Source: a virus. Taken from it: 26,852 nucleotides of DNA. Made by a program: the position numbers and the translations under genes. The notes beneath the pieces were generated by a model that was not told the origin of the DNA, did no database searches, and saw only the letters and a list, made by a program, of their open reading frames with translations. Below are positions 9,183 to 22,919 of this stretch, one piece after another (within the stretch, counting starts at the first letter, position 1; every line of letters starts with the position of its first letter). The stretch is taken from positions 1 through 26,852 of the IMG/VR virus record IMGVR_UViG_3300042569_002775. One strand, written 5' to 3'.

Positions 9183-9869
9183 ATGACAAACATGAAATGG
9201 GTGCTTGACCAAGGTAACTACAAGCTAAATGGGGCGAAGGAAGCGAGCGCTGCCATTTCCGTCGCTGAGGACAATGACCCAGTCACGATTGTTTCTCGTG
9301 GCCAGCATCTTGATTTTTTTGATAGTAGAGGATCGTATCTGGGCACTTTGACCGCTCGTAATGCGGTCGCAAAGCGCATCCATAGTGGCGTTCCCTTGCT
9401 CATGTGTCACGTAGCTTGGAAACTGCCCCCTTGCGAACGATATCCGGATGGAGTGGTGAGTGTCCGGATAATAACTGGTGACCCCGATGATCCGTATGTA
9501 AAATGGTGCGCTAAAGAAATATGGGGCAAGGCCCGCGAGCTAAGGCCTATGCGCTCATACCCGATCAGGCTGGCGGGCGGAGCGAATTACCTAACCGCAA
9601 TTTCAAATTGCCGCGAGGGGGACAATGTAACTTTATTTCGTGAACCGGATAACCCTCACGACAATAGAGCGATCGTGGCTAAAACATGTACCGGTTTAGT
9701 TATTGGATACATTCCCAGACGAAGTTTTTTACACCAAGCGGTTCACGACGGCGGATGTGGCGCAGTCGCGAAGGTTTTATCTATACCAACATTACCTGAC
9801 AATAATATCGTATTAGACGTCACGGTAAGTGGAGATGAGATGCTATTAGCATCCTATGGCGTTAATTAA
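9183..9869 (+). CDS. HIRAN-domain protein (cargo gene)
   Basis: A 228-residue protein whose second half is a HIRAN domain (about 126-215): 'YPIRLAGGANYLTAI', then 'REPDNPHDNRAIVA' (153-166) and 'GYIPRR' (175-180), the strand signatures of this OB-like fold, which in HLTF/Rad5 helicases binds 3' DNA ends. No helicase or nuclease domain accompanies it. The N-terminal half (34-95) also has small-barrel-like strands ('VTIVSRGQHLDFFDSRGSYLGTL'), maybe a degenerate second copy. Codon use and GC are clearly lower than in flanking tail genes, which marks recent acquisition. Its stop overlaps the stop of the minus-strand repressor-like gene by 3 bp. Possible roles are protection of phage DNA ends, interference with host repair nucleases, or defence; none is shown. 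No strong ribosome site precedes ATG 9183. Confidence 0.8.
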   Translation: MTNMKWVLDQGNYKLNGAKEASAAISVAEDNDPVTIVSRGQHLDFFDSRGSYLGTLTARNAVAKRIHSGVPLLMCHVAWKLPPCERYPDGVVSVRIITGDPDDPYVKWCAKEIWGKARELRPMRSYPIRLAGGANYLTAISNCREGDNVTLFREPDNPHDNRAIVAKTCTGLVIGYIPRRSFLHQAVHDGGCGAVAKVLSIPTLPDNNIVLDVTVSGDEMLLASYGVN

Positions 9870-10131: not shown

Positions 10132-10662
10132 ATGTCTCAGGCTGTTGCCGCCCCTAGCACGGGCGATTGCGTTATTGTAGGCGGTAAATCCGCCAATGCT
10201 ACCGATATTCCAACGGGAAATATCGGGCGGCGATCCCCCTCCCGCCGTGCTGTGCTGGCCGGTATGTTGCTGGCTCCAGCGGCAGCCGCGCTGCCGACCG
10301 TGGTTGCCGCAGCCGATCAGGCAGAGGCATGGGAGGATCCTGTCCTGCAATCGAAGCGTGTGGACGCGATATTCTGGGCGCAGCGCGACAAATGGATGCA
10401 GGTTCGGGAAGCATGGAAGTCAGCCGATGCGGGGGCCTATCTTACGGATGCCGAGAATGACCGTTACTGCGCGGAAGCGGACAGTGCCGAATATTCGATG
10501 ATGACGTGCCGGATCGTCACGCTGCCGGCGCTGTACGCAAAGATGCAGGCGATCCAGGAAGAGCCTGAAAATAAGCTGCACGGCGGTAGCGACCCCACGA
10601 CCATGTTCGACGTGATCATGTGGGATGTCGAGCGGCTGATCATGAAGGAGTATCGGGCATGA
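10132..10662 (+). CDS. protein with twin-arginine-like signal or anchor, unknown function
   Basis: 176 residues, start ATG 10132 behind CGGAG with a 6-nt spacer. After a polar lead of ~32 residues come 'RRSPSRRAVLAGMLLAPAAAALPTVVAAA' features: SRRAVLAG matches the twin-arginine motif and is followed by a hydrophobic segment to about residue 61, then an Ala-rich possible cleavage site. The remaining ~110 residues are helical and Trp/Met/acid-rich ('VDAIFWAQRDKWMQVREAW', 'MTCRIVTLPALYAKMQAIQ') with no domain that I recognise. It shares an ATGA overlap with the pRha gene and so probably its expression. An exported or membrane-anchored product is suggested, but the long pre-signal lead is unusual. 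Confidence 0.65.
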   Translation: MSQAVAAPSTGDCVIVGGKSANATDIPTGNIGRRSPSRRAVLAGMLLAPAAAALPTVVAAADQAEAWEDPVLQSKRVDAIFWAQRDKWMQVREAWKSADAGAYLTDAENDRYCAEADSAEYSMMTCRIVTLPALYAKMQAIQEEPENKLHGGSDPTTMFDVIMWDVERLIMKEYRA

Positions 10663-11435
10663 GCGCGCTGGTGCAGGTGCGCGGCGACGCGGTGCTGGCG
10701 AGCAGCCTGGATGTGGCGCGGTCGTTTGGAAAGCAGCATCAGCATGTGATGCGTTCGATCCGTACGCTGGTGGACCAGGCACATGATCTTGCGTCCAATT
10801 TTGGACGGATGATCGTACAGGTTGAAACTGGCAAGTCTGCGCGGCGCGATAGCCATTATTACGAAATGGATCGCAAGGGTTTTACCCTGCTGGCAATGGG
10901 CTTCACCGGGCCGAAGGCGCTGGAATGGAAGATTGCCTATATCGATGCATTCGACCGGATGGAGGCGGCGCTGCGCGCGGCGGTGAATGACGACGAGGAA
11001 GAAGATATGCTTCCCGTCGCCCGTCCGGCGGCCGATACCGGGCTGGCCTTTGTCGAGCGGATGAAGTTCGAGCCGCCGAATATCCAGTTGGCCTATGTTC
11101 GCGAAATGCGGATGGCGCGCGGGCGCCCCGGCGCGATCATGGCGATGCGCGAACTGGGATGGGAGCAAGCGGAAGATACGGGGCCGGAACAGGTGATGGC
11201 CGCGAGCAATCCGGTTATTCGGCAAGTGCTGCAATGGGTGCAGGATCGCACCATGGCGGCGCCTGGCAACCGGATCAGGACGATGACGATGTATAATGAT
11301 TTCGTTCGGTGGTGCGCCGATTTGGGGGCGGAAGTGTTGAGCCTGCCAGCTTTCGGCCGATCGCTAGGCGCGTTGGGCTATCCATCGCGGCGGTCGAACG
11401 CGACCTATCGTGACGGGCTGAAGCTGAGAGATTGA
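10659..11435 (+). CDS. pRha-family phage regulatory protein with D5-like C-terminal winged helix
   Basis: The start ATG 10659 is chosen for AAGGAG 8 nt upstream and the ATGA overlap with the previous stop; 258 residues. The N-terminal pRha domain (about 13-105) is clear: 'SSLDVARSFGKQHQHVMRSI', 'HYYEMDRKGFTLLAMGFTGPKALEWKIAYIDAFDRME'. After an acidic linker ('DDEEED'), the C-terminus (about 185-258), with 'VLQWVQDRT', 'MYNDFVRWCADLG', 'LPAFGRSLGALGYPSRRS' and 'YRDGLKLR', follows the winged-helix pattern at the end of D5/P4-type phage primases. Rha proteins of lambdoid phages affect growth in IHF-deficient hosts. A DNA-binding regulator is likely. Its place just before the tape measure gene is unusual. 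Confidence 0.8.
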   Translation: MSALVQVRGDAVLASSLDVARSFGKQHQHVMRSIRTLVDQAHDLASNFGRMIVQVETGKSARRDSHYYEMDRKGFTLLAMGFTGPKALEWKIAYIDAFDRMEAALRAAVNDDEEEDMLPVARPAADTGLAFVERMKFEPPNIQLAYVREMRMARGRPGAIMAMRELGWEQAEDTGPEQVMAASNPVIRQVLQWVQDRTMAAPGNRIRTMTMYNDFVRWCADLGAEVLSLPAFGRSLGALGYPSRRSNATYRDGLKLRD

Positions 11436-11473: not shown

Positions 11474-11505
11474 GGCTGCCGGGATGGTCCCGGTGGCCCC
11501 TTTTT
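11474..11505 (+). terminator. intrinsic-terminator-like hairpin abutting the tape measure ribosome site
   Basis: An 11-bp stem (11474-11484 with 11488-11498, core CCGGGA/TCCCGG plus two G-U pairs, loop TGG) is followed by CC and TTTTT (11501-11505). The next bases CGTGGAG (11506-11512) contain the ribosome site of the tape measure. It ends the cargo block and would limit read-through from the pRha gene. A near-identical module precedes the endolysin (22324-22345). Confidence 0.55.
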
Positions 11506-11519
11506 CGTGGAGATCGCAG

Positions 11520-14500
11520 ATGGACTATGCTGATGGCCTTGGCGTCAATCTCGCGATCGGCGCGGAGGGTGCGTTCGAGACGTTGCGCCAGGTCGAAACG
11601 GCGATGAACACGACCGAAGCCCGGATCGTGGCGGAAGCTGCCAAGGTCGAGCGCGCTATCGGCGGCATGATCAATGTCGATAACGCAACGGTTCAGTTGG
11701 CATCGCTCGGCAATGAGATGACCAAGACGAGCTTCAGGGCGGCCAGCGAGGCGGCGCGGATCGAGCGATCCGGCGAGCGTCTAGTGCGGCAACTGGAACG
11801 TCAGAACGCCGCCTATGGTCTGACCCGGGAGGAGTTGCGTCGCCTGAAGGTGGAAGAGCAAGCCGCCGATGCCGAGCGCGTCGGTAATTTCGACCTTGCC
11901 AACAGGTTGCTGGCGCAGGAAGCGTCCCTGTACGATCAGGAATTTGCCGCTATGCGCAAGGTGCGCATGGAGGCGGAGGCCCTGGCCGAGGATAAGGCCA
12001 TGGCCGCGCAGCAGGCTGCCGCCGCTGCCGAGCGGGAAGCCACCGCCACACGCGAAGCAGCCTTCGCCTATCAGATGTTCGAGGCCAGGGCGCGTGAAGG
12101 CGCCGCGGCGTTGCGGGAATTTGAAGCCGCTGAAAAGGCGGCCGCAGCGGATGCTCATGCTCAGAATTTGCGTGAAGCCGCTTTCGCCCATCAGATGTTC
12201 GAGGCAGCGGCGCGCAAGGGTATCGTTGCGATGCGTGAACAGGATGCGGCCGCCCAGCGGGATGCTGCCACCCTTGCCAATCTACGTGCAGCCTTGGATC
12301 CCGCAGCAGCAGCGCAGGAGCGTTTGAATAATCAACTGACCGAAGCCCGTCGTGTCATGCAGGCTGCCGGCGCCAGCGGCGAGGAGCTTGCGCGGGTCGA
12401 ACTGATGCTTTCCCGGCAGCACAACAATGTCGGGCAGGCGACGGACGCGTCTCGTGCCGCCATGCAAAATCTTGGCTTCCAGTTGCAGGATTTCGCAGTG
12501 CAAGTGGTTGGTGGCACCTCCGCTCTACGCGCGTTTGCGATGCAGGCGCCTCAGGCGGCCGGGGCATTGACCGGCTTTGAAGGCAAACTGGGTACTGTCG
12601 GCCGCTTTCTGAATGGCCCTTGGGGCATCGCGCTGACGCTCGCCAGTGTTCTCGCTGCGGGTTTTGCCGACGAGCTGCTGGGCGCGTCGAAAGCCCTCGA
12701 TCAAGTGCAGTTCTCGTCCAATGCCGTTGGCAACGCCCAGAACATCCTGGGTAATGTGATGGACATCACGACCGGCAAGATCACTTCTCAAAGTGGTGCC
12801 CTTATGGGCCTTGCGCAGGCGCAGTTGGCTGTCGCGCGAGTTCAGGCTCAGCAACGGCAGGCAGAGGCCCGCGCGGGCATTGAGGGCGCAGGTAAGCTTG
12901 GTTTCACCGACAGCTTCTATGGTGCGTTCGCCAGCAAGAAGACGTTGCAGGGTAGCTGGACCACGCAAAATCTGATGGCCTCATTGCTTGGTGGCGCGAC
13001 GGATTCCAAAAGTGTGCTTCGGTCGTTGGAAAGCCTGCAACAGGGCGGCCTCATCACAGCCGAGACATTTGCAAAAGCGGCGGCATCTGTCGCCAATTTT
13101 GCGGTCGAGGGCGAAAATCTCAAGGTCTATGAATCTGCGCAGCGGGTTCTGGACGGCGTCGGCACGAGTCTCGATCGAGGTATCATTCTCCGCGCGCCCA
13201 AGGCCACTAAGGCAGCCAAAGAGACAGAGGCCGCCCTGAAGGAGTTGTTGAAAACAGCCGAATGGCTTTCCGCAACGAAGGCGGCGGCGCAGGGCAACGT
13301 CTGGAGCATGGCTCAAGATGTTGCCAAACGGAACAGCGAGTGGGGCAAGGATATGCCTACGCTTGGCTCCCAGATGATCCAGGAAGACGAAGACGCAGCC
13401 AAGAAGCTGCGTGCGCAACAGGATTTGCGCCAGGAAGTGATCGGCGCCTTCATTGCCGACCTTGATAGCGTTTCCGACCGGGTCGACGTCGTAGCTGCCA
13501 ATATGCGCGATGCGTTCGGCAGCGTCGGGGGCGCCATCGGCGGCCTGATTACCGTGCTCGACGAATATGGCAAGCGCCAGGCCGAGATCGATAAGCAGCG
13601 CGAACTGGGCGGCCTGTCAGCAAAGAAGCAGGCCGGTCTGCGCCGGCAAGAGGCCGATAATCAGATTGCCGGTATGGTGGCCCTGACCAGCGCGGCCAAG
13701 GGCCTCTTCAGCGAACATAGCAAGGGATACAAGGCGATGGAGGCAGCCGAAAAGGCGCTGACCGTCATCCAGCTGGCTCGCACGGCGGTGGACGTCGCCG
13801 GCGGCGCGGCGCGCATGTTTGCCACGCTTGGCCCCTATGCCTTCCCCGCTGTCGCCGCGATGCTGGGCGTCATGGCCTCGCTCGGCTTTGGCGGTGGCGG
13901 CTCGGGTGGCTCGCTGCCCAAATCGAACGACGGGACCGGCACCGTGCTGGGCGATGCGTCGGCGAAGTCGGAGAGCATCAAGCGCGCGATCGACAGCCTG
14001 AAGGAGGTCGACACCGTGATGTTGACCTATTCGCGCCAGATGGCCGCCTCGCTGAGCGCGATCGAGAGCAATATTTCCGGCTTTGCCGCACTGGTGCTGC
14101 GCACCGACAACGTCAATGCGTCCGCCGGCGTCAACACCGGCTTCTCGCAGGACACGACGGGCAAGGTGCTGGAAGGCATCATCACCGGCGGCGGCCTGTT
14201 CTCTGAGATCCCGGTGGTCGGCGGCATCATCGGCGGGATCGGCAGCATCATCGGTTCGCTGTTCGGATCGAAGACGAAGGTGGTCGGCAGCGGCCTCTAT
14301 GGAGGTGCGCAGAGCCTGGAGGATATCCTGTCGGGCGGGTTCGACGCCTCCTATTACAGCGACATCCAGAAAAAGAAGAAGCTGTTCGGCCTGACCACGT
14401 CGACCAAATATTCGACGCAGTATAGCGATGCGGACAGCGGCCTTGAAAACCAGTTCACGCTGATCCTGCGCGAATTCAACAATGCGATCCTGGCCGCCGC

Positions 14501-15848
14501 CGGACCGCTGGGCGTCGCGACCAGCGAGATCCAGCAGAAGCTCAATGGCTTTGTCGTCAACATCGGCAAGATCGACCTGCAGGGCCTGACCGGCGAAGAG
14601 ATCGAAGAGAAGCTGACCGCCGTATTCGGCGCCGCAGCCGATGACATGGCCAAGGCCGCCTTCCCCGGTATCGAGAAGTTTCAGGCGGTGGGCGAAGGCC
14701 TGTTCGACACGCTGGTGCGCGTTGCGTCCACCGTCGAGAGCGTCACGTCGTCGCTGACCATGCTGGGATCGTCGGCAAGCCTGATGAGTGTCGACCTGAA
14801 AATGGCGCTGGCAGACCAGTTCGACAGCGTCAGCGATTTCAGCAGCGCAGTCGATAGCTATTTCGAGACCTATTACACGAAGGAGGAACAGGCCGCCGCC
14901 CGCACCGCGCAGTTTGCGACCGTGTTCGACAGCCTGGGCCTCGCCATGCCCGGCACGCTGGCCGCGTTCCGCCAGCTGGTCGACGCGCAGGATCTGACCA
15001 CCGCCGCCGGCCAGGTCACCTATGCCACGCTGCTGCAGCTGGCGCCGGCCTTCGCCGACCTGCAATCGGCCCTCAACGGCGCCAAGAGCGCGGCCGATAT
15101 CCTGTCCGAGCGGCAGGATCTGGAAAAGCAGCTGCTGGAGCTCCAGGGTAACACCGCCGCGATCCGCGAAATGGAGCTGGCCAATCTCGACGAGAGCAAC
15201 CGCGCGCTACAGCAGCAGATCTGGGCGTTGCAGGACGCGCAGGACGCCGCCGACGCCGCGCAGAAGCTGAAGGACGCCTGGTCGTCGGTGGGCGACAGCA
15301 TCATGGATGAGGTCAACCGGATCCGCGGCATCACCGACGGCACCGGCACCGGCAGCTTCGCCCAGCTGCAGGGCCAGTTCAATGCCGCTGTCGCAGCCGC
15401 CAAGGCGGGCGACCAGGATGCTGCCGGCACGCTGCCCAGCCTGTCGCAGGCGCTGATCCAGGCGGCCGAGCTCGCGGCGACGAGCCGGCAGGAACTGGAC
15501 CGGGTGAAGGCCCAGACCGCCGCCACGCTGGAAAGCGTCTATGCGTCGGTGCTGGCGCTGGCTGGCGGGACCAGCTCGACCGGCGTTGCCACCGGCACCG
15601 GCGCGCCGACCGGCACGATCCTGGAGGCCGCGGCCACTGCGGCACAGGCATCGGCCACGTCCAGCGATAGCGACAGCGTGATCGCCGAGCTCAAGGCGCT
15701 GCGCGAGGAAGTCGCCCAGATGCACAGCGACAATAATAGCGGCCATGCCGCGAATGCGTCGAACACTGGCGCCATCAAGCGGAAGTTCGAGGACGTGACA
15801 GCAGACAGCGGCGGCAATGCCATCACCGTGACGGGGCGTGCCGCATGA
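11520..15848 (+). CDS. tail tape measure protein
   Basis: The start ATG 11520 is preferred because GTGGAG lies 7 nt upstream; the longer frame from 11484 would begin inside the terminator hairpin. The 1442-residue product fits a siphophage tape measure, which sets tail length and is ejected with DNA. It has long Ala/Glu/Arg coiled coil (about 35-340), including a 40-residue tandem repeat (REAAFAYQMFEA / REAAFAHQMFEA), hydrophobic spans near 350-400, 760-800 and 880-925 ('FPAVAAMLGVMASLGFGGG', 'VVGGIIGGIGSIIGSLFG'), and a second coiled coil near the end. At about 1.5 A per residue the tail would be ~215 nm. GC3 rises sharply from about 13560, suggesting a mosaic join inside the gene. The stop overlaps the next start (ATGA 15845). 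Confidence 0.87.
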   Translation: MDYADGLGVNLAIGAEGAFETLRQVETAMNTTEARIVAEAAKVERAIGGMINVDNATVQLASLGNEMTKTSFRAASEAARIERSGERLVRQLERQNAAYGLTREELRRLKVEEQAADAERVGNFDLANRLLAQEASLYDQEFAAMRKVRMEAEALAEDKAMAAQQAAAAAEREATATREAAFAYQMFEARAREGAAALREFEAAEKAAAADAHAQNLREAAFAHQMFEAAARKGIVAMREQDAAAQRDAATLANLRAALDPAAAAQERLNNQLTEARRVMQAAGASGEELARVELMLSRQHNNVGQATDASRAAMQNLGFQLQDFAVQVVGGTSALRAFAMQAPQAAGALTGFEGKLGTVGRFLNGPWGIALTLASVLAAGFADELLGASKALDQVQFSSNAVGNAQNILGNVMDITTGKITSQSGALMGLAQAQLAVARVQAQQRQAEARAGIEGAGKLGFTDSFYGAFASKKTLQGSWTTQNLMASLLGGATDSKSVLRSLESLQQGGLITAETFAKAAASVANFAVEGENLKVYESAQRVLDGVGTSLDRGIILRAPKATKAAKETEAALKELLKTAEWLSATKAAAQGNVWSMAQDVAKRNSEWGKDMPTLGSQMIQEDEDAAKKLRAQQDLRQEVIGAFIADLDSVSDRVDVVAANMRDAFGSVGGAIGGLITVLDEYGKRQAEIDKQRELGGLSAKKQAGLRRQEADNQIAGMVALTSAAKGLFSEHSKGYKAMEAAEKALTVIQLARTAVDVAGGAARMFATLGPYAFPAVAAMLGVMASLGFGGGGSGGSLPKSNDGTGTVLGDASAKSESIKRAIDSLKEVDTVMLTYSRQMAASLSAIESNISGFAALVLRTDNVNASAGVNTGFSQDTTGKVLEGIITGGGLFSEIPVVGGIIGGIGSIIGSLFGSKTKVVGSGLYGGAQSLEDILSGGFDASYYSDIQKKKKLFGLTTSTKYSTQYSDADSGLENQFTLILREFNNAILAAAGPLGVATSEIQQKLNGFVVNIGKIDLQGLTGEEIEEKLTAVFGAAADDMAKAAFPGIEKFQAVGEGLFDTLVRVASTVESVTSSLTMLGSSASLMSVDLKMALADQFDSVSDFSSAVDSYFETYYTKEEQAAARTAQFATVFDSLGLAMPGTLAAFRQLVDAQDLTTAAGQVTYATLLQLAPAFADLQSALNGAKSAADILSERQDLEKQLLELQGNTAAIREMELANLDESNRALQQQIWALQDAQDAADAAQKLKDAWSSVGDSIMDEVNRIRGITDGTGTGSFAQLQGQFNAAVAAAKAGDQDAAGTLPSLSQALIQAAELAATSRQELDRVKAQTAATLESVYASVLALAGGTSSTGVATGTGAPTGTILEAAATAAQASATSSDSDSVIAELKALREEVAQMHSDNNSGHAANASNTGAIKRKFEDVTADSGGNAITVTGRAA
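12051..12250 (+). repeat. 120-nt tandem repeat inside the tape measure gene
   Basis: The sequence CAGATGTTCGAGGC occurs at 12072 and again at 12192, exactly 120 nt apart, within similar flanks (CGCGAAGCAGCCTTCGCC versus CGTGAAGCCGCTTTCGCC). The two units encode related 40-residue coiled-coil blocks that share R-E-A-A-F-A-x-Q-M-F-E-A. Tape measure length variation often arises from such repeats. Confidence 0.7.
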
Positions 15849-18800
15849 AGGTCATCACCGACGCCGGCGTGATCGAGATCGGCACGACGGAAACGGCGCC
15901 CACCATCGGCCTGACCGACTATAGCCGGCGCGAGACCGATGATTTCGGCGTCACCACCGTCGTCAAGCGTAACTTCTCGCGGACCATGTCGGCGCGGGTG
16001 ATGGTGCCTACTGCCAATGTCGACGCCCTGCAGCGCCAGCTGGCCGCCCTGCGCGCCAAGCCGGTCCAGTGGGTGGCCGATGACCGTTTCGACAGCCTGT
16101 CCATCACCGGCTTCTACAAGGATCTGTCGATCGATCTGGCGATCCCGCCCGTCAGCTATTGCACGCTGACGATCGAGGGTCTGGCCGAGGGCGCCGATTA
16201 TGCCGATCCTGGCACGGACCCGGCAACCGATCAGCGCAAATCGTCGCTGCGGCTGTTGCGGCCAGCCTCGATCGATGATGCTGTTCTGACGTCGAGCAAT
16301 GTGCCGGAAAATGATTATCCGGCCTGGTCGGCGTCGGCCACCTATGCGCTTGGCGCTTGCGTCATCCTTTCGGCGACGCACAGGATCTACGAGAGCGCGG
16401 CCAACGGCAATGTCGGCAATGATCCGACGGGCACCGCCGGCCAGTGGATCGATATCGGGCCCACCAACCGCTGGGCGATGTTCGACCAGGCGCTGGGATC
16501 GCAGACCGAACGGGCGGGCAGCATCGTCGTTTCGCTCGATCCGGTCGATCCGATCGATGCAATCGCGCTGCTGGACGTCACGGCCGTGAGCGTGCGGGTG
16601 CAGGCTCCCGGCTATGACCGAACCTTGTCGCCCGCGATCCAGCCCGGTGCGGTCACCTTCCTCGACCTGCCGGCGACGGCCGGCACCGTCACCATCACCA
16701 TTTCGGGAAGTGGCACCGTTTCGGCGGGGACGTTGCTGATCGGCACGCTGCTGGGCCTTGGCACGACGGAAGCCTCGCCCAGGGCAGCGATCACCGACTA
16801 TAGCCGCAAGGACACCGACGCGTTCGGTGAAGTGACGGTGGTCGAGCGCGCCTGGGCCAAGCGCATGGACGTGAAGTCGCTGATCAGCACTTCCGCCGTT
16901 GACGTCGTCGCCGCGCGCATTGCCAATGTGCGCGCGATGCCGGCGCTGTGGATCGGTGACGCCACGCTGGAAAGCCTGGCCATTTACGGCTTCTTCAAGG
17001 ATTTCTCGATCGCGGTTGACGAACATGTCAGCACGCTGTCGCTCTCGATCGAGGGGCTGAGCACTGCCGCCAAGCTAGCGCCCCTAATATCCCCGGAGGA
17101 TATTGGCTTTACGGACGGCACAACGTTGGATGATCTGAAAGACCAGGCCGACGCAGACAGCGACAAGTTGGAAACCATTCAGCCTGGCGCTACTGCCGGC
17201 GGCACGGTTGGCGTCGATCTCTGGGTTCCAGAATTGCCCGACGTTCCCGCGCCGCCCGGACTGCTGCGCAACGACCTGATTTCCCTGCGGGAAGACGGGG
17301 TGCTGCAATATCAACCCTATCCCGACAATGCTGACCTGAAGGTTGCGCTGGGCCAGGTCGCTATCCCTGACATTGCCGGACAGTTGACGCTCGCCAGCGA
17401 TGGCTCGCTCGTTTTCGAAGCGACGGACGGTTCTGTTTCGACGCTCGGCAAAATCAGCCTGCCGGATATAGGCGCCGCCAGCGATGCGTCGCGTCGGACG
17501 CTGGAAAATGCTGTTGATCAGCTGGGCGCGGCGGTTGCGCAGGTGGTCAGCGAAGCAAGCCAGACGCGCGAAAATTTTCGCGATGCCGGCTTCTACGTCG
17601 ATCCCACGACCGGCCAAATCCGTCTCAGCGCGATTGATCAAACAGGCGAGCGGATCAGCACGGCGGAAGTGCGCTTGTCGGCGGCGGAAGCCAGCATAAC
17701 ATTGCGCGCAACCACCAGCTATGTCGATGGGCGGATCGCCCAGCTGGTTCTCGACCCTTCCCAGTTTCCGGTCTACGAAGGCATCGAACTGCGCGTCTCG
17801 GATGTCGAAGTGCGCCTGTCAGCGGCAGAATCCAGCATCGCTCAAAAGGCGAGCCTGATCGACCTCAATCTGCTCGGCGGTCGTGTATCCAATGCTGAAC
17901 AGACGATCGATGCGCTGTCCGGCGCGATCACCCTTAAGGTCGATCGAACGGAATTCGATGCCGTAGAAGCCCGGGTCAGCACCGCAGAACAGACGATCGA
18001 TGCACTGGGTGATAGCGCATCCATCGTGCAGGCCCTGAGCGCCGTGCGAATGTTGCCTGATCAGGCGGCATCCGCGCAGGAGAGCGCCTTGCGCGCGCTT
18101 TTGAACGGCGATCTTGCGGCCCGCAGCCAGGTCGCCGCCATCGCATCGGCCCGGACAGAGTTGACAGCCAAGATCAACGGCGATCTTGACGCGGAGGCGC
18201 GAGCACGAACAGAGCTTGCTGTCCGCATCGGCCGTGCTGAGGCCAGCGCGCTGACGGAAACGCAGGCGCGGATTGACGGTGCCCAGGCGATCACCCTCCA
18301 AGTGACGCTGTTGACCAGCCAGTTCAACGACAGCAAGGCGACCTTCACTGCCCAGATCGCCACCCTCGCAACGCAGACCGAGGCCCTGGCCGCTCGTTCG
18401 GATGCCCTGGAAATTGGTGTCGGCGAAAATGCCGCGGCGATACAGGCCGAAGAGGCTGCGCGCATCACGGAGGCTGGGGAGATCAGGGCGAGCGCCCGGG
18501 AAGCGATTAGCGCCGCGCGCGGTCTTAATGCGCGCGTCGATGCCGTGCTCGACATCGTTACGGCCGACCTGTTGCGGGGAGACGCCCGCTCGCGCGATCT
18601 CGCGGGAACGATCGCGGCAGCTCGGCAGGAAATTACGGCTAAGGTCAACGAGGACGTGGAGGCCGTCGTTGCGCGCGTGACCCTACTCTTTGCGCGCATG
18701 GACGACGCCGAAGCGGCGATCTTGATTGAAGAATTGGCGCGCGCCACCCAGCTCGATGCGATCGTCAGACAGATCACGACGTTGTCAGCCACGGTCGCCG

Positions 18801-20509
18801 GCGCCAACGCAGGCTTCACCGATCAGATTGCCGCATTGGCGAATGACGCCCTGGCAGCGACCGAGCGCATGGACAGCATGCAAAGCGCCATTGGCGACAA
18901 TGCTGCCGCCATTGGCAATGAGGCGTCGACGCGTGCGCAGGTTGATGACCAGATCATAGCTGCGGCCGGCCAGACCGTTGCCGCAGTTCGCAACGCCGAT
19001 AATAGTGCAGCGGATGCCGCCGAGCAGGCTTTGCGCGCGCTGCTCACCGGCGACCTGGCCAAGCGCGATGCAACGACCGCCATCGCTGCGGCGAGGCAGG
19101 AGGTGACGGCCAAGATCAACGGCGATGTCGATGTGCTTGTGTCCAGAATTGTCGCGCTCATCGCGCGGCTGGGATTGGCAGAGGCATCTATCGCCCTCGA
19201 GCAATATACCAGAGCGACCGCGCTGGCCGCGATGGCGAGCCAGATCGAAACCGTTCTGGCATCGATCGAAAATGTCGAGAGCATGGTTTCACTGGAAACC
19301 AACGCACGCGTGGATGCCATCACCGCGCTCGCTCAGCAGGTGCTCGCGCTCAAAGCTCAGGTGGATGGCGAGATTGCCGATCTTTCAGCAGGCATCAGCG
19401 CCGCGCTGCAGGCCATGTCTGACGGCGACAATGCGCTTGCCCTGTCGATCGAGCAGCTGCGCGCGGAGAAAAACAGCGATATCGATTCAGTCGTCGCCAG
19501 CGCGGTGGCGGAAACGCAGGCGCGCATCGACGGGCAGGCCGCACTGGCATCACGTATCGACGCGCTGGATGCCGCCAATGACAATATGAGCGCTTCATTC
19601 CTGGAGGAAAAGCAAGCCCGGCTGGACGGCGATCTGGCGCTGAGTGCACAGGTCATCGCCCTCAAGGCAGAGAAGGATAGCGATATCGGCGCCCTGCAGG
19701 CTGCGAACACTACCGAGCAGCAGGCGCGCATTGATGGGGATGGCGCTTTATCAGCGAGCCTTCTGACTGTGAGCGCGGCGCTTGATGACCAGACCGCCCT
19801 CGTCCAGCAAAACAGTGTGGCGATCGCCGACGCGATGGGACGGCTTGGTGCCTATTGGGAAGTCTATGCGATTGGCGATGGTGGCGAGGCGTTCGTTCGC
19901 CTTGCTTCCGCCGAAGGCCAGACGGCCTTCGTCGTCGGCACCAATCTGCGCGTCCTGGGCGATGCCGTCATTGACGGCACTATCAATCCGGCTGCTTTGG
20001 CGCTGAGCCGCTTCGTGCGGCGTGTCAGTGCCAGCGGCACCGGCTCTCCCCAAGCTGGCCAAAATCTTCTGCTCACCACTGTCGATCTTGGCGAGGTCAC
20101 CCCCAATGGCAGTTATGCTCTGGAGGTCACTGGATCGTTCAAGGCCAATGTCGGCCGGGCGGCCAGCACCTACAATGGCAAGACGCTCTACACCAATACT
20201 CTACCGGACGGTGGATTGCTTATCCAGATCGTGCGCGCAGATGAGACGGTGGTCGCAGCCTATGAAGTGACCGCCTCACAATATGGAGCCGACACCCCAG
20301 TGACGCGCACGATTAATGGTGGCGCCGACCTTATCTATGATGCGCCAGCGGCCGATGATGTCGGTGGCAATCGCATCATGCGCATCTATGCAAAGCGTGG
20401 CGAAGCCGACAGCGGCATCGTGAGTGAGGGCGATTATTATCGTCGCGACATGAGCGCCACCTATTCCAATTTTTCAATCTCAACCAAACTGAAGTGGACG
20501 TTCATATGA
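15845..20509 (+). CDS. giant tail tip / central fibre protein with duplicated N-terminal domain
   Basis: A 1554-residue protein directly after the tape measure, where distal tail and tip genes belong. Architecture: domain A (1-113, 'LTDYSRRETDDFGVTTVVKR...FDSLSITGFYKDLSIDLA...CTLTIEGLAE'); a CBM5/12-like carbohydrate-binding segment (about 158-203, 'WSASATYALGACVIL...IYESAANGN...W'); a beta domain (206-300); domain B (304-408), a second copy of A ('ITDYSRKDTDAFGEVTVVER...LESLAIYGFFKDFSIAVD...LSLSIEGLS'); a linker; a long coiled-coil region (~545-1350) with a 157-residue repeat; then 'WEVYAIGDGGEAFVRLASAEGQTAFVV' and 'VLGDAVIDGTINPAALA', typical of the C-terminal part of lambda-J-like proteins; and a beta-rich end (~1385-1554). 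It probably combines baseplate hub, fibre and receptor recognition. GC3 drops after ~17085. The stop overlaps the next start. Confidence 0.75.
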   Translation: MKVITDAGVIEIGTTETAPTIGLTDYSRRETDDFGVTTVVKRNFSRTMSARVMVPTANVDALQRQLAALRAKPVQWVADDRFDSLSITGFYKDLSIDLAIPPVSYCTLTIEGLAEGADYADPGTDPATDQRKSSLRLLRPASIDDAVLTSSNVPENDYPAWSASATYALGACVILSATHRIYESAANGNVGNDPTGTAGQWIDIGPTNRWAMFDQALGSQTERAGSIVVSLDPVDPIDAIALLDVTAVSVRVQAPGYDRTLSPAIQPGAVTFLDLPATAGTVTITISGSGTVSAGTLLIGTLLGLGTTEASPRAAITDYSRKDTDAFGEVTVVERAWAKRMDVKSLISTSAVDVVAARIANVRAMPALWIGDATLESLAIYGFFKDFSIAVDEHVSTLSLSIEGLSTAAKLAPLISPEDIGFTDGTTLDDLKDQADADSDKLETIQPGATAGGTVGVDLWVPELPDVPAPPGLLRNDLISLREDGVLQYQPYPDNADLKVALGQVAIPDIAGQLTLASDGSLVFEATDGSVSTLGKISLPDIGAASDASRRTLENAVDQLGAAVAQVVSEASQTRENFRDAGFYVDPTTGQIRLSAIDQTGERISTAEVRLSAAEASITLRATTSYVDGRIAQLVLDPSQFPVYEGIELRVSDVEVRLSAAESSIAQKASLIDLNLLGGRVSNAEQTIDALSGAITLKVDRTEFDAVEARVSTAEQTIDALGDSASIVQALSAVRMLPDQAASAQESALRALLNGDLAARSQVAAIASARTELTAKINGDLDAEARARTELAVRIGRAEASALTETQARIDGAQAITLQVTLLTSQFNDSKATFTAQIATLATQTEALAARSDALEIGVGENAAAIQAEEAARITEAGEIRASAREAISAARGLNARVDAVLDIVTADLLRGDARSRDLAGTIAAARQEITAKVNEDVEAVVARVTLLFARMDDAEAAILIEELARATQLDAIVRQITTLSATVAGANAGFTDQIAALANDALAATERMDSMQSAIGDNAAAIGNEASTRAQVDDQIIAAAGQTVAAVRNADNSAADAAEQALRALLTGDLAKRDATTAIAAARQEVTAKINGDVDVLVSRIVALIARLGLAEASIALEQYTRATALAAMASQIETVLASIENVESMVSLETNARVDAITALAQQVLALKAQVDGEIADLSAGISAALQAMSDGDNALALSIEQLRAEKNSDIDSVVASAVAETQARIDGQAALASRIDALDAANDNMSASFLEEKQARLDGDLALSAQVIALKAEKDSDIGALQAANTTEQQARIDGDGALSASLLTVSAALDDQTALVQQNSVAIADAMGRLGAYWEVYAIGDGGEAFVRLASAEGQTAFVVGTNLRVLGDAVIDGTINPAALALSRFVRRVSASGTGSPQAGQNLLLTTVDLGEVTPNGSYALEVTGSFKANVGRAASTYNGKTLYTNTLPDGGLLIQIVRADETVVAAYEVTASQYGADTPVTRTINGGADLIYDAPAADDVGGNRIMRIYAKRGEADSGIVSEGDYYRRDMSATYSNFSISTKLKWTFI
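17086..17104. repeat. 7-bp inverted repeat at a composition break in the tip gene
   Basis: AATATCC (17086-17092) and GGATATT (17098-17104) surround CCGGA. The element lies within codons just after duplicated domain B and where high-GC3 sequence to the left gives way to more mixed codon use on the right. It may mark an old recombination join; it may also be chance. Confidence 0.35.
18094..19140 (+). repeat. 471-nt period repeat in the coiled-coil region of the tip gene
   Basis: The block coding 'T-A-K-(I/V)-N-(G/E)-D' starts at 18164, 18635 and 19106, spaced by exactly 471 nt (157 codons) twice. Each is preceded by a 'LL.GD...R...I..AR.E(L/I/V)' block. Units 1 and 2 also share 'IGxxENAAAI / IGDNAAAI' downstream. 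The units are divergent at DNA level, so the duplication is old or selection keeps the spacing. Confidence 0.75.
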
Positions 20510-21858
20510 CATGGTATTCGAGCGGGACTGTCACTGTCACGAATGGATCGCGCACTGTCACAGGCAGCGGCACCGACTTTGTCAGCAATGTGCTGGCGGG
20601 GCAGGCTTTCATCGGCGCTGGTGACAGCCGGTCGTATGAAATCGAACAGGTGGTTTCTGCAACGCAGCTGTTGTTGCGGCGGCCATATCTGGCTGCAAGC
20701 GGATCGGGCCAGAGCTACGACATCCTGCCAACGCAGTCGCTGATGAAAGATCTTGCCGACCAGGCCGGCAGCCTCATTTCGTCCTTCGCTTCGGTTCGCG
20801 ATGGCATTGGTCAGGGCTTGATGCAGCCTGGTTCGGTATCCTCGCCCGGGCTGCGCTTCGCCAATGACCAGGACACCGGTTTGTTCTGGAGCGGCAGCAA
20901 CAGCATGAGTCTCGCGACCGCTGGCATTGAGCGGATGATCGTCGAAGGCTCTGGTCGTGTTCTCATGGGCACACCGCAGTCAGCCGAGCGTCTGAATGTC
21001 GGCGGCAAGGTTTACGCGATCTCCGACGGGGAGGCGGGTTACCGGCTCTACAACGGCGGCCAGAGCGTCGAATGGTTCATGGGGCAGAAGTCCATCAGCG
21101 AGCACGCCCTGGCGTTTCAGACATGGGTTGGTGCCGCCAAGACCGACATTCTTACCATCGATGTGAGCGGCAACCTCTACTCGGGTAAGGATAATAATCT
21201 TAACGCGCTGGGCCTGCCCAGCAGCCGTTGGTCAACTGTCTACGCCGGCACCAGCACGATCAACACGTCCGACGCGCGCGAAAAGGTGTGGCGCGGCGGC
21301 CTCTCCTCATCAGAGCGTACTGCTGCCCGGCGTATCATAGCCGAACTTGGTTTTTTCCAGTGGACGGATGCCGTCGCGGAAAAAGGTGCGGATGGAGCAC
21401 GCTATCATTTCGGTGTGCGCGCGCAGGCTGTCGCGCGCATCCTGATGGAAGAAGGGCTGGAAGATGAGCATGCTCTCGATCTGCCTTCCGATATTTTTGT
21501 GACGGACGCGCAGCGTCCATCGTTCCGCGCAGCATTCATGTGCTTTGATACCTGGGAAGATCAATTCGCGGCCGAGTATCAAATGGTCGATGTTGAAAAA
21601 CAGGTTTTCAGCGGACTGTATGATGCCAATGGCGTCGAGGTCATGAAAACCGTGACGGTGCAGGAGCGGCATGCGACCGGTCGCAACGTCAAGACGGTCT
21701 CTGCCGGCAACCGCTTTGGCCTGCGCACTGATCAGCTTGCCATGTTCATTGCTGCCGGACTGGCGGCGGATCTCAGCGAAGCCAGTGAAGTGCATGATGC
21801 ATTATCCGATCAAGTTAACGCATTGGAGGCGCGGCTGAGTGCGCTGGAGGCGGCCTGA
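20506..21858 (+). CDS. tail fibre with C-terminal Peptidase_S74 intramolecular chaperone
   Basis: Start ATG 20506 (ATGA overlap with the tip gene); 450 residues. The N-terminus is a small beta domain ('SSGTVTVTNGSRTVTGSGTDF'), seen at the start of many fibre proteins. 'GLRFANDQDTGLFWSGSNSMSLATAG' (about 115-140) and 'LNVGGKVYA' are fibre-shaft motifs. The S74 domain starts with 'TINTSDAREKV': Ser255-Asp256 are the expected cleavage dyad, with the cut just before Ser255. It continues 'AARRIIAELGFFQW', 'YHFGVRAQAVARIL' and ends in a coiled coil ('VNALEARLSALEAA'). The C-terminal part folds the fibre trimer and then cuts itself off. At about 195 residues it is longer than minimal S74 domains. 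The fibre probably binds a host surface glycan. Confidence 0.85.
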   Translation: MTWYSSGTVTVTNGSRTVTGSGTDFVSNVLAGQAFIGAGDSRSYEIEQVVSATQLLLRRPYLAASGSGQSYDILPTQSLMKDLADQAGSLISSFASVRDGIGQGLMQPGSVSSPGLRFANDQDTGLFWSGSNSMSLATAGIERMIVEGSGRVLMGTPQSAERLNVGGKVYAISDGEAGYRLYNGGQSVEWFMGQKSISEHALAFQTWVGAAKTDILTIDVSGNLYSGKDNNLNALGLPSSRWSTVYAGTSTINTSDAREKVWRGGLSSSERTAARRIIAELGFFQWTDAVAEKGADGARYHFGVRAQAVARILMEEGLEDEHALDLPSDIFVTDAQRPSFRAAFMCFDTWEDQFAAEYQMVDVEKQVFSGLYDANGVEVMKTVTVQERHATGRNVKTVSAGNRFGLRTDQLAMFIAAGLAADLSEASEVHDALSDQVNALEARLSALEAA

Positions 21859-22345: not shown

Positions 22346-22358
22346 CGTGGAGCAAGAC

Positions 22359-22919
22359 ATGAACATTGATCAGCTGATCGATGACGCGATCGGCCGCGAG
22401 GGCGGCTATGTGAACAATCCCAAGGATAAGGGAGGGCCAACGCGCTGGGGCACCACCGAGCAGGTGGCGCGAGCCTTTGGCTATACGGGCGACATGCGTG
22501 TTTTCCCGCGAGAGTCGGCCGTCGAAATCTACCGCAAGCGTTACCTGATCGAGCCGGGCTTCGATAAGATCCTCGCTATGTCGGCCGCGATCGGCGAGCT
22601 GCTGTTCGATACCGGCATCAACATGGGTCAGGCCATGGCTGGTCAGTTCCTCCAGCGTGCGCTCAACCTCTTCAACCGGGGCGCCTCGCTATATCCGGAT
22701 CTCAAGGTCGACGGCGCTTGCGGCCCGATGACGCGGCAGTCGCTGGCCAGCTACCAGCAGCGGCGCGGCGCGACCGGCGAAGGACTCCAGGTGCTGCTCT
22801 GGACTATCCACGCCTTCCGAACCGAACGTTATGAGGAAATCAGCCTCGTGCGTCCTGCAAACGAAGAGTTCAGCTATGGCTGGGTCGCGCGGCAGGTTCG
22901 CATGGGGTTCGACGCATGA
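22359..22919 (+). CDS. endolysin, glycoside hydrolase family 108 (N-acetylmuramidase)
   Basis: Start ATG 22359, 6 nt after GGAG; the frame extends upstream only into the terminator. 186 residues. The GH108 catalytic motif 'REGGYVNNPKDKGGPTRWG' (13-31) includes the proposed catalytic Glu14. 'MGQAMAGQFLQRALN' (near 88-102) and 'DLKVDGACGPMTRQSLASY' are typical of the C-terminal peptidoglycan-binding (PG_binding_3) part found with GH108. It cuts the glycan backbone of peptidoglycan. No signal peptide or anchor is seen, so it depends on the downstream holin for release. The stop overlaps the holin start (ATGA 22916). Confidence 0.9.
   Translation: MNIDQLIDDAIGREGGYVNNPKDKGGPTRWGTTEQVARAFGYTGDMRVFPRESAVEIYRKRYLIEPGFDKILAMSAAIGELLFDTGINMGQAMAGQFLQRALNLFNRGASLYPDLKVDGACGPMTRQSLASYQQRRGATGEGLQVLLWTIHAFRTERYEEISLVRPANEEFSYGWVARQVRMGFDA

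Follow-up and report, generated by a model that had tools for sequence, protein, structure and literature searches.

The tail-tip gene and its surroundings

The window, by which we mean the whole 26,852-nt stretch of DNA that was analysed, is a phage fragment carrying terminase, portal, capsid, tape measure, tail-tip and S74 fibre genes. The tail-tip protein consists, in order, of a head, a joint, a shaft with units of 157 residues, a distal array and a C-terminal domain. The features referred to below are as follows.

11484..15848, plus strand, tape measure protein gene (phrog_7740), directly upstream of the tip gene
15845..20509, plus strand, tail-tip protein gene, 1554 residues, from its open frame and translation; the head matches phrog_6278
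15845..17185, plus strand, head (residues 1–447), a tube-like domain present twice, around a jelly roll; fold of JBD30 gp49 and the Chi tail tip
17186..17251, plus strand, head/shaft joint (residues 448–469) with a GATxG linker; homology between the window and L083 starts here
17252..17956, plus strand, proximal shaft (residues 470–704), a 30-residue repeat resembling a β-layer coiled coil; offset-30 self-match from residue 650
17957..18427, plus strand, 157-residue unit 1 (residues 705–861), TAKINGD at 18164
18428..18898, plus strand, 157-residue unit 2 (residues 862–1018), TAKVNED at 18635
18899..19369, plus strand, 157-residue unit 3 (residues 1019–1175), TAKINGD at 19106; the last 30 or so residues blend into the distal array
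19370..19864, plus strand, distal helical array (residues 1176–1340), with shorter periods (offsets 36, 68 and 104)
20494..21858, plus strand, downstream tail fibre with a peptidase S74 chaperone domain

The tape measure, tip protein and S74 fibre genes are followed by an endolysin-like gene (22347–22919), and among these window genes there is none for a separate distal tail, NlpC/P60 or J-like protein; the order in L090 is different. Within the structural cluster, genes for a HIRAN-domain protein (9183–9869) and a Rha-type regulator (10620–11435) separate those for the major tail protein and the tape measure. The shaft matches no Pfam family at an E value of 0.01, and the single NCBIfam row that it returned is far under the cut-off of that family.

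The 157-residue repeat

The blocks TAKINGD, TAKVNED and TAKINGD begin at residues 774, 931 and 1088 and are 471 nt apart both times, as the sequence-only reading had pointed out. Self-alignment of the protein indicates that this observation was understated, with the repeat extending beyond the motif to the whole 157-residue stretch. The best ungapped self-match (BLOSUM62) is at an offset of 157 and pairs residues 705–1058 with 862–1215, giving 113 identities in 354 columns and a score of 417. When the coil was shuffled in blocks 200 times, the scores averaged 55 and did not exceed 87. A repeat limited to the motif is ruled out, as the self-match covers the full unit. The next-best offsets include 314, which is the double, and 293, which is a separate duplication in the head. 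A sub-repeat of 32 residues is present inside the unit.

Any two of the units in the window share 52–53 of their 157 residues (about 33%). The DNA between the motifs had been described as diverged, and it is: the units are 42–48% identical in DNA and 31–37% identical at third codon positions, which are near saturation, and the copies are therefore old. At the DNA level the only tandem repeat found is an 18-nt array of 2.1 copies at 15579–15616.

In gapped alignments units 1 and 2 of the window still pair without gaps, while the pairs that involve unit 3 gain compensating gaps; the aligner adds such gaps in two of the three unit pairs of the window, in all three of L082 and in one of the three of L083. 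Because these alignments put a 7-residue gap in the last 30 residues of unit 3, which run into the distal array, and MAFFT also gives a 7-column gap, we regard the period as exact over residues 705 to about 1146 and as less certain beyond.

Hydrophobic core and shaft structure

Across the 471-residue array, large hydrophobic residues recur with one sharp period, of 3.565, in each of the three proteins with three units (the window protein, L082 and L083). This value falls in the coiled-coil range of 3.5 to 3.67. The power of the core period is 4.6–5.5, compared with a null maximum of 2.1, and none of 1000 block shuffles was as strong for any of the proteins. Peaks at some value of 157/k are expected because the units are homologous, and only the sharpness at k = 44 is informative: the power is concentrated at 157/44 (3.57) and is almost gone at 157/43 and 157/45. 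Arithmetically, 157/44 corresponds to 13 heptads plus six hendecads. Along the array the local phase of the core stays at roughly 31–96°, and only the beginning of unit 1 departs from this. The single period across all three copies indicates that the core is continuous and that the copies join in register, as judged from the placement of these residues. Each unit thus holds a near-whole number of core turns, 44, although we estimate that about one-third of all lengths would do so by chance.

A single-chain AF2 model of the shaft has low confidence (mean pLDDT 54, pTM 0.22) and is almost all helix over residues 706–1334, with helices at 739–888, 898–951, 954–1051 and 1073–1334, the last of which takes in the distal array up to residue 1334. 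In this low-confidence model the helix breaks near unit positions 31–34, 28–36 and 34–54 of units 1, 2 and 3, respectively.

The proximal shaft resembles the β-layer modules of α/β coiled coils, as indicated by its IxxK[AV][DS] motifs, which were compared by eye with those in the available part of PMC4786415. At 17792–18025 a 30-residue repeat of the ITLKVDRTEF type leads into unit 1, and its length is equal to 9 + 3 × 7. It could be argued that the TAKxN block is likewise a β-layer, at which the chains cross over, and that the unit is the segment from one layer to the next. The block does resemble the IENKADKAD-type layers, with a pattern of aliphatic-x-x-K-aliphatic-N (PMC4786415, as far as it was available). 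However, its hydrophobic positions (77, 80/81, 84, 87 and 91), read by hand, misfit the nonad register that the upstream repeats fit, and the low-confidence monomer model gives helix at the block. We therefore consider a β-layer at this position to be unlikely.

Relatives of the shaft and their heads

A search with the whole protein returned 79 loci, mostly matched through the head. The periods in the shafts of these relatives are different, for example 28, 36, 40, 108, 121 and 216. We note strong periods in the shafts of same-head tip proteins (216 in L026, 238 in L031, 122 in L045, 108 in L057 and 36 in L058); higher-order repeats are therefore common in this head family. Of the 79 proteins, eight match a profile built from the three units at an E value of 0.001. 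One of them, L002, has the same sequence as the window protein, six others carry one or two copies, and in L013 the match is significant only at profile positions 66–153.

Searching with the unit alignment found L082, L083 and L084, which are 61, 69 and 50% identical to the window protein, respectively, over a region of 511 residues. L082 and L083 each have three units spaced exactly 157 and 157, as in the window, and L084 has two units spaced 125. The proximal shaft as query added L091, L092 with its copy L093, and L094, and a further search added L101, which has two units. The spacing is 165 in L091, 219 in L092 and L101, 231 in L094 and about 121 in L005 and L008. The number of complete units is one, two or three in the 13 proteins scored, so the repeat number, a comparison that had been proposed earlier, does vary between relatives. 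These counts omit matches of less than 12 bits or not spanning profile positions ≤45 to ≥100, and the second unit of L091 (49 bits), which is cut by the end of the contig, was also left out. Thus, 157 is not a universal unit length; more distant shafts carry the unit once or twice at other spacings. Nor is there a universal rule of whole turns, as 3.57 does not divide evenly into 165, 219 or 231. Pattern scans of genome contigs gave 88 and 34 pattern matches but no confirmed relatives, and in phage and plasmid collections all of the matches listed are to the head or the distal coil.

The head of the window protein contains the tube-like domain in duplicate (residues 9–96 and 302–389, with 37 identities in 88 columns) and, at residues 138–303, a jelly roll with matches such as CBM32. 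Its model (mean pLDDT 78) superposes on the Chi tail tip with a Z score of 11.0 (239 residues, r.m.s. difference 5.8) and on the JBD30 baseplate chain 8rk3_D with a Z score of 10.9 (217 residues, r.m.s. difference 4.2), the fold match running through both tube-like domains (residues 9–407). Foldseek alone returned one match at E < 0.001, the Chi tip. We take chain D of 8rk3 to be gp49 from its length and residue ranges. The JBD30 distal tail protein is described in the available part of PMC11445458 as a trimer with two tube-like domains per chain, which converts sixfold to threefold symmetry. By analogy, a trimer of the window head would present six tube-like domains, matching a sixfold tail.

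Shafts closely related to that of the window are attached to heads of three families: phrog_6278 in the window, phrog_5616 in L082, L083 and L092, and phrog_8917 in L094, whose N-terminal sequence those of L091 and L101 resemble when read by eye. When the window is compared with L083 in steps of 40 residues, the identity climbs at the joint, near residue 448, from 15 to 65 and then to 80%. For L083 against L084 it drops from 90 to 38% just past the joint. The latter two appear as a head/shaft recombinant pair, with heads 96% identical (614 of 640 residues), shafts about 50–60% identical, and three and two units, respectively. A linker of the form [DGN]AT.G lies near the joint in 14 of the 17 tips chosen for this examination. 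The shaft therefore behaves as an exchangeable module at a short linker. A spacing of 157 is found under both phrog_6278 and phrog_5616 heads and a spacing of 219 under both a phrog_5616 and an L094-like head, showing that the spacing goes with the lineage of the shaft and not with the head.

These comparisons also bear on the view that the length is set from outside, with an accessory protein, receptor layer or assembly partner binding once per unit at the TAKxN block. The block is the best-conserved part of the unit, and the spacing is constant in all three of the three-unit proteins, as such a ruler would have it. On the other hand, the unit is spaced by 121–231 residues in other shafts, identical spacings occur under different heads, and the 235 residues ahead of the units, which have no period of 157, are also gapless. 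An external ruler is in our view improbable.

Insertions and deletions

The window protein, L082 and L083 were aligned over residues 470–1175, proximal shaft included, and the 705 columns contain no gap; the three pairs differ by 228, 227 and 243 substitutions. For comparison, 20 pairs of heads at 60–75% identity have 62 gaps, mostly of 1–2 residues, in 2945 substitutions, the pairs coming from 20 of the 79 loci and being non-independent. The heads of L082 and L083 have three gaps in 107 substitutions and those of L083 and L084 none in 26. At the rate of the heads, the 698 substitutions in the shaft predict about 15 gaps, or about seven when halved for shared history.

The same pattern extends to more distant proteins. 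A MAFFT alignment of 13 proteins at 33–93% identity covers 245 residues of the proximal shaft and unit 1, from the RDAG block through the core of the first unit, and shows indels at three sites only: one of three residues, one of four residues (L009 only) and one of 30 residues (L009 only), the last of which is the length of the proximal repeat. Steps of three and four residues are special in coiled coils in that they are close to one helical turn, as described in the available part of PMC4786415. In raw pairwise alignments of the same 13 proteins there are 13 one-residue gaps, three two-residue gaps and some longer ones; we read many of these as alignment noise because they are absent from the multiple alignment.

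The constant spacing had been taken in the sequence-only reading to imply a structural constraint, such as a repeated trimer segment of fixed length. Part of this holds, as the spacing is old and the head accepts many more indels than the shaft does. A length that is fixed in all shafts is not supported, since related shafts space the unit by 121, 125, 165, 219 or 231 residues. The data partly support a constraint on indels and register within one shaft lineage, and not on the number 157 itself.

In most proteins substitutions outnumber indels, and the length might have been retained passively, if the time since duplication was too short for the diverging copies to accumulate indels. The divergence of the paralogous units, in protein and at third positions, together with dS values of 1.5–1.9, argues against this, as does the absence of every one of the gaps predicted from the head rate, and we regard passive retention as quite improbable. 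Unit divergence and dS likewise rule out a recent duplication. Between phages the shaft has dN values of 0.19–0.31 and dS values of 1.4–1.9, and substitution in it is strongly constrained.

Age and history of the copies

In a tree of the nine units from the window protein, L082 and L083, the copies group by position (first, second and third) across the three phages, with support of 0.95–1.00. As the units cluster by position and not by phage, the triplication preceded the divergence of these three phages. The three ancient 157-residue copies thus arose by internal duplication and then changed by substitution, not by indels. When unit cores from other proteins are added to the tree, the two units of L084 fall with the first and third positions.

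Continuing recombination between copies, which would keep the array regular by concerted evolution, would account for the length difference of 189 residues in L084 (157 + 32, one unit plus one internal sub-repeat), but it is contradicted in the three-unit proteins by this tree, in which copies are not homogenised within a phage, and is very improbable.

Interpretation

In our view, the period is probably that of a coiled-coil module present three times in the helical shaft of the tail-tip protein of a siphophage. Because the head has a fold like that of the trimeric JBD30 distal tail protein, a coil of three chains is the likeliest form of the shaft by analogy. The three chains would run parallel in this coil, with a trimeric, ring-like head above it. 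The rise of a coiled coil is 1.48 Å per residue, and each unit would add about 23 nm of stiff shaft. Such a shaft would hold the C-terminal domain and the fibre encoded by the next gene away from the tail. A small indel would shift the core register in three chains at once and would be removed, while gain or loss of whole units, or changes of one turn (3–4 residues), would restore the core register at the same phase and could be tolerated. In lambda, the helical shaft of gpJ, which is shorter, is rearranged when the receptor is bound, and the tip is opened, according to the available part of PMC11101478; by analogy, a continuous shaft that stays in register could carry an opening signal of this kind.

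On the L083 contig the tip gene is preceded by genes for the tape measure, a distal tail protein, a tail protein and an NlpC/P60-like protein, in that order, and is followed by the fibre gene; in the window the tape measure gene is immediately followed by the tip gene. The fibres that follow the window and L083 tips share N-terminal families (e.g. phrog_1980, phrog_2712 and phrog_38424). We suggest tentatively that shaft and next-gene fibre together make up an exchangeable cassette, whose array is joined at an unchanged spacing, through GATxG, to different tips and whose length changes only in steps that are compatible with the register. The tips concerned may be, again tentatively, a distal-tail-protein head in the window phage and a lambda-like tip in L083. 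If this is the case, the reach of a fibre and the tail on which it sits would be inherited separately.

It is easy to take a long tail-fibre shaft for a featureless spacer, and this one shows how a shaft evolves: its units duplicate and diverge to about 33% identity without gain or loss of a residue, and its relatives are found on unrelated heads. It offers a natural set for testing what fixes the length of a fibre and how threefold shafts join different tips. No model of tail structure is overturned by these results.

Comparison with known systems

Among solved structures, the only sequence matches up to an E value of 1 are the tail fibre of an F2-pyocin (PDB entry 25vf), which matches residues 919–1050 with an E value of 0.00086, and a chain of the central straight fibre of tip J (PDB entry 9ze4_N), which matches residues 1082–1232 with an E value of 0.019. 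Both are weak matches between composition-biased coiled coils and are not evidence of the 157-residue unit. A search of the literature for such repeats gave no description that we recognised as this unit.

In gpJ of lambda, a helical segment of a trimeric tip protein lies between hub domains and the receptor-binding end (PMC11101478, available part), and the shaft of the window protein may be placed in a similar way. The order of genes at L083 may also be likened to that of gpJ, with the shaft after tape measure, distal tail and NlpC/P60 genes. The window head itself matches phrog_6278 and no J-type family, which is in itself no exclusion. The helices of gpJ lie within residues 809–861 in the same portion of PMC11101478, whereas here the predicted helix extends over about 630 residues and has a higher-order repeat of 157. 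The JBD30 gp49 protein shares with the window head the two tube-like domains per chain, but it is, in the part of its description available, a separate protein without a long shaft, while the window head is fused to one.

The α/β coiled coils also accept insertions of three and four residues, and their KAD-type layers are like the proximal 30-residue repeats, but the 157-residue unit, judged from its sequence, appears to misfit the β-layer register (PMC4786415, in part). A further parallel is fibritin (gpwac) of T4, as far as the accessible portion of PMC3797505 describes it. Fibritin has a trimeric coiled-coil shaft which likewise shows modular swapping and deletion or duplication of segments. 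In fibritin a C-terminal domain is swapped on a conserved shaft, whereas here the heads differ and the shaft is shared; compared with fibritin, the unit here is long and its spacing exact. Coiled-coil tail-fibre shafts of modular construction are thus known, and the shaft that we report here is a variant of that type.
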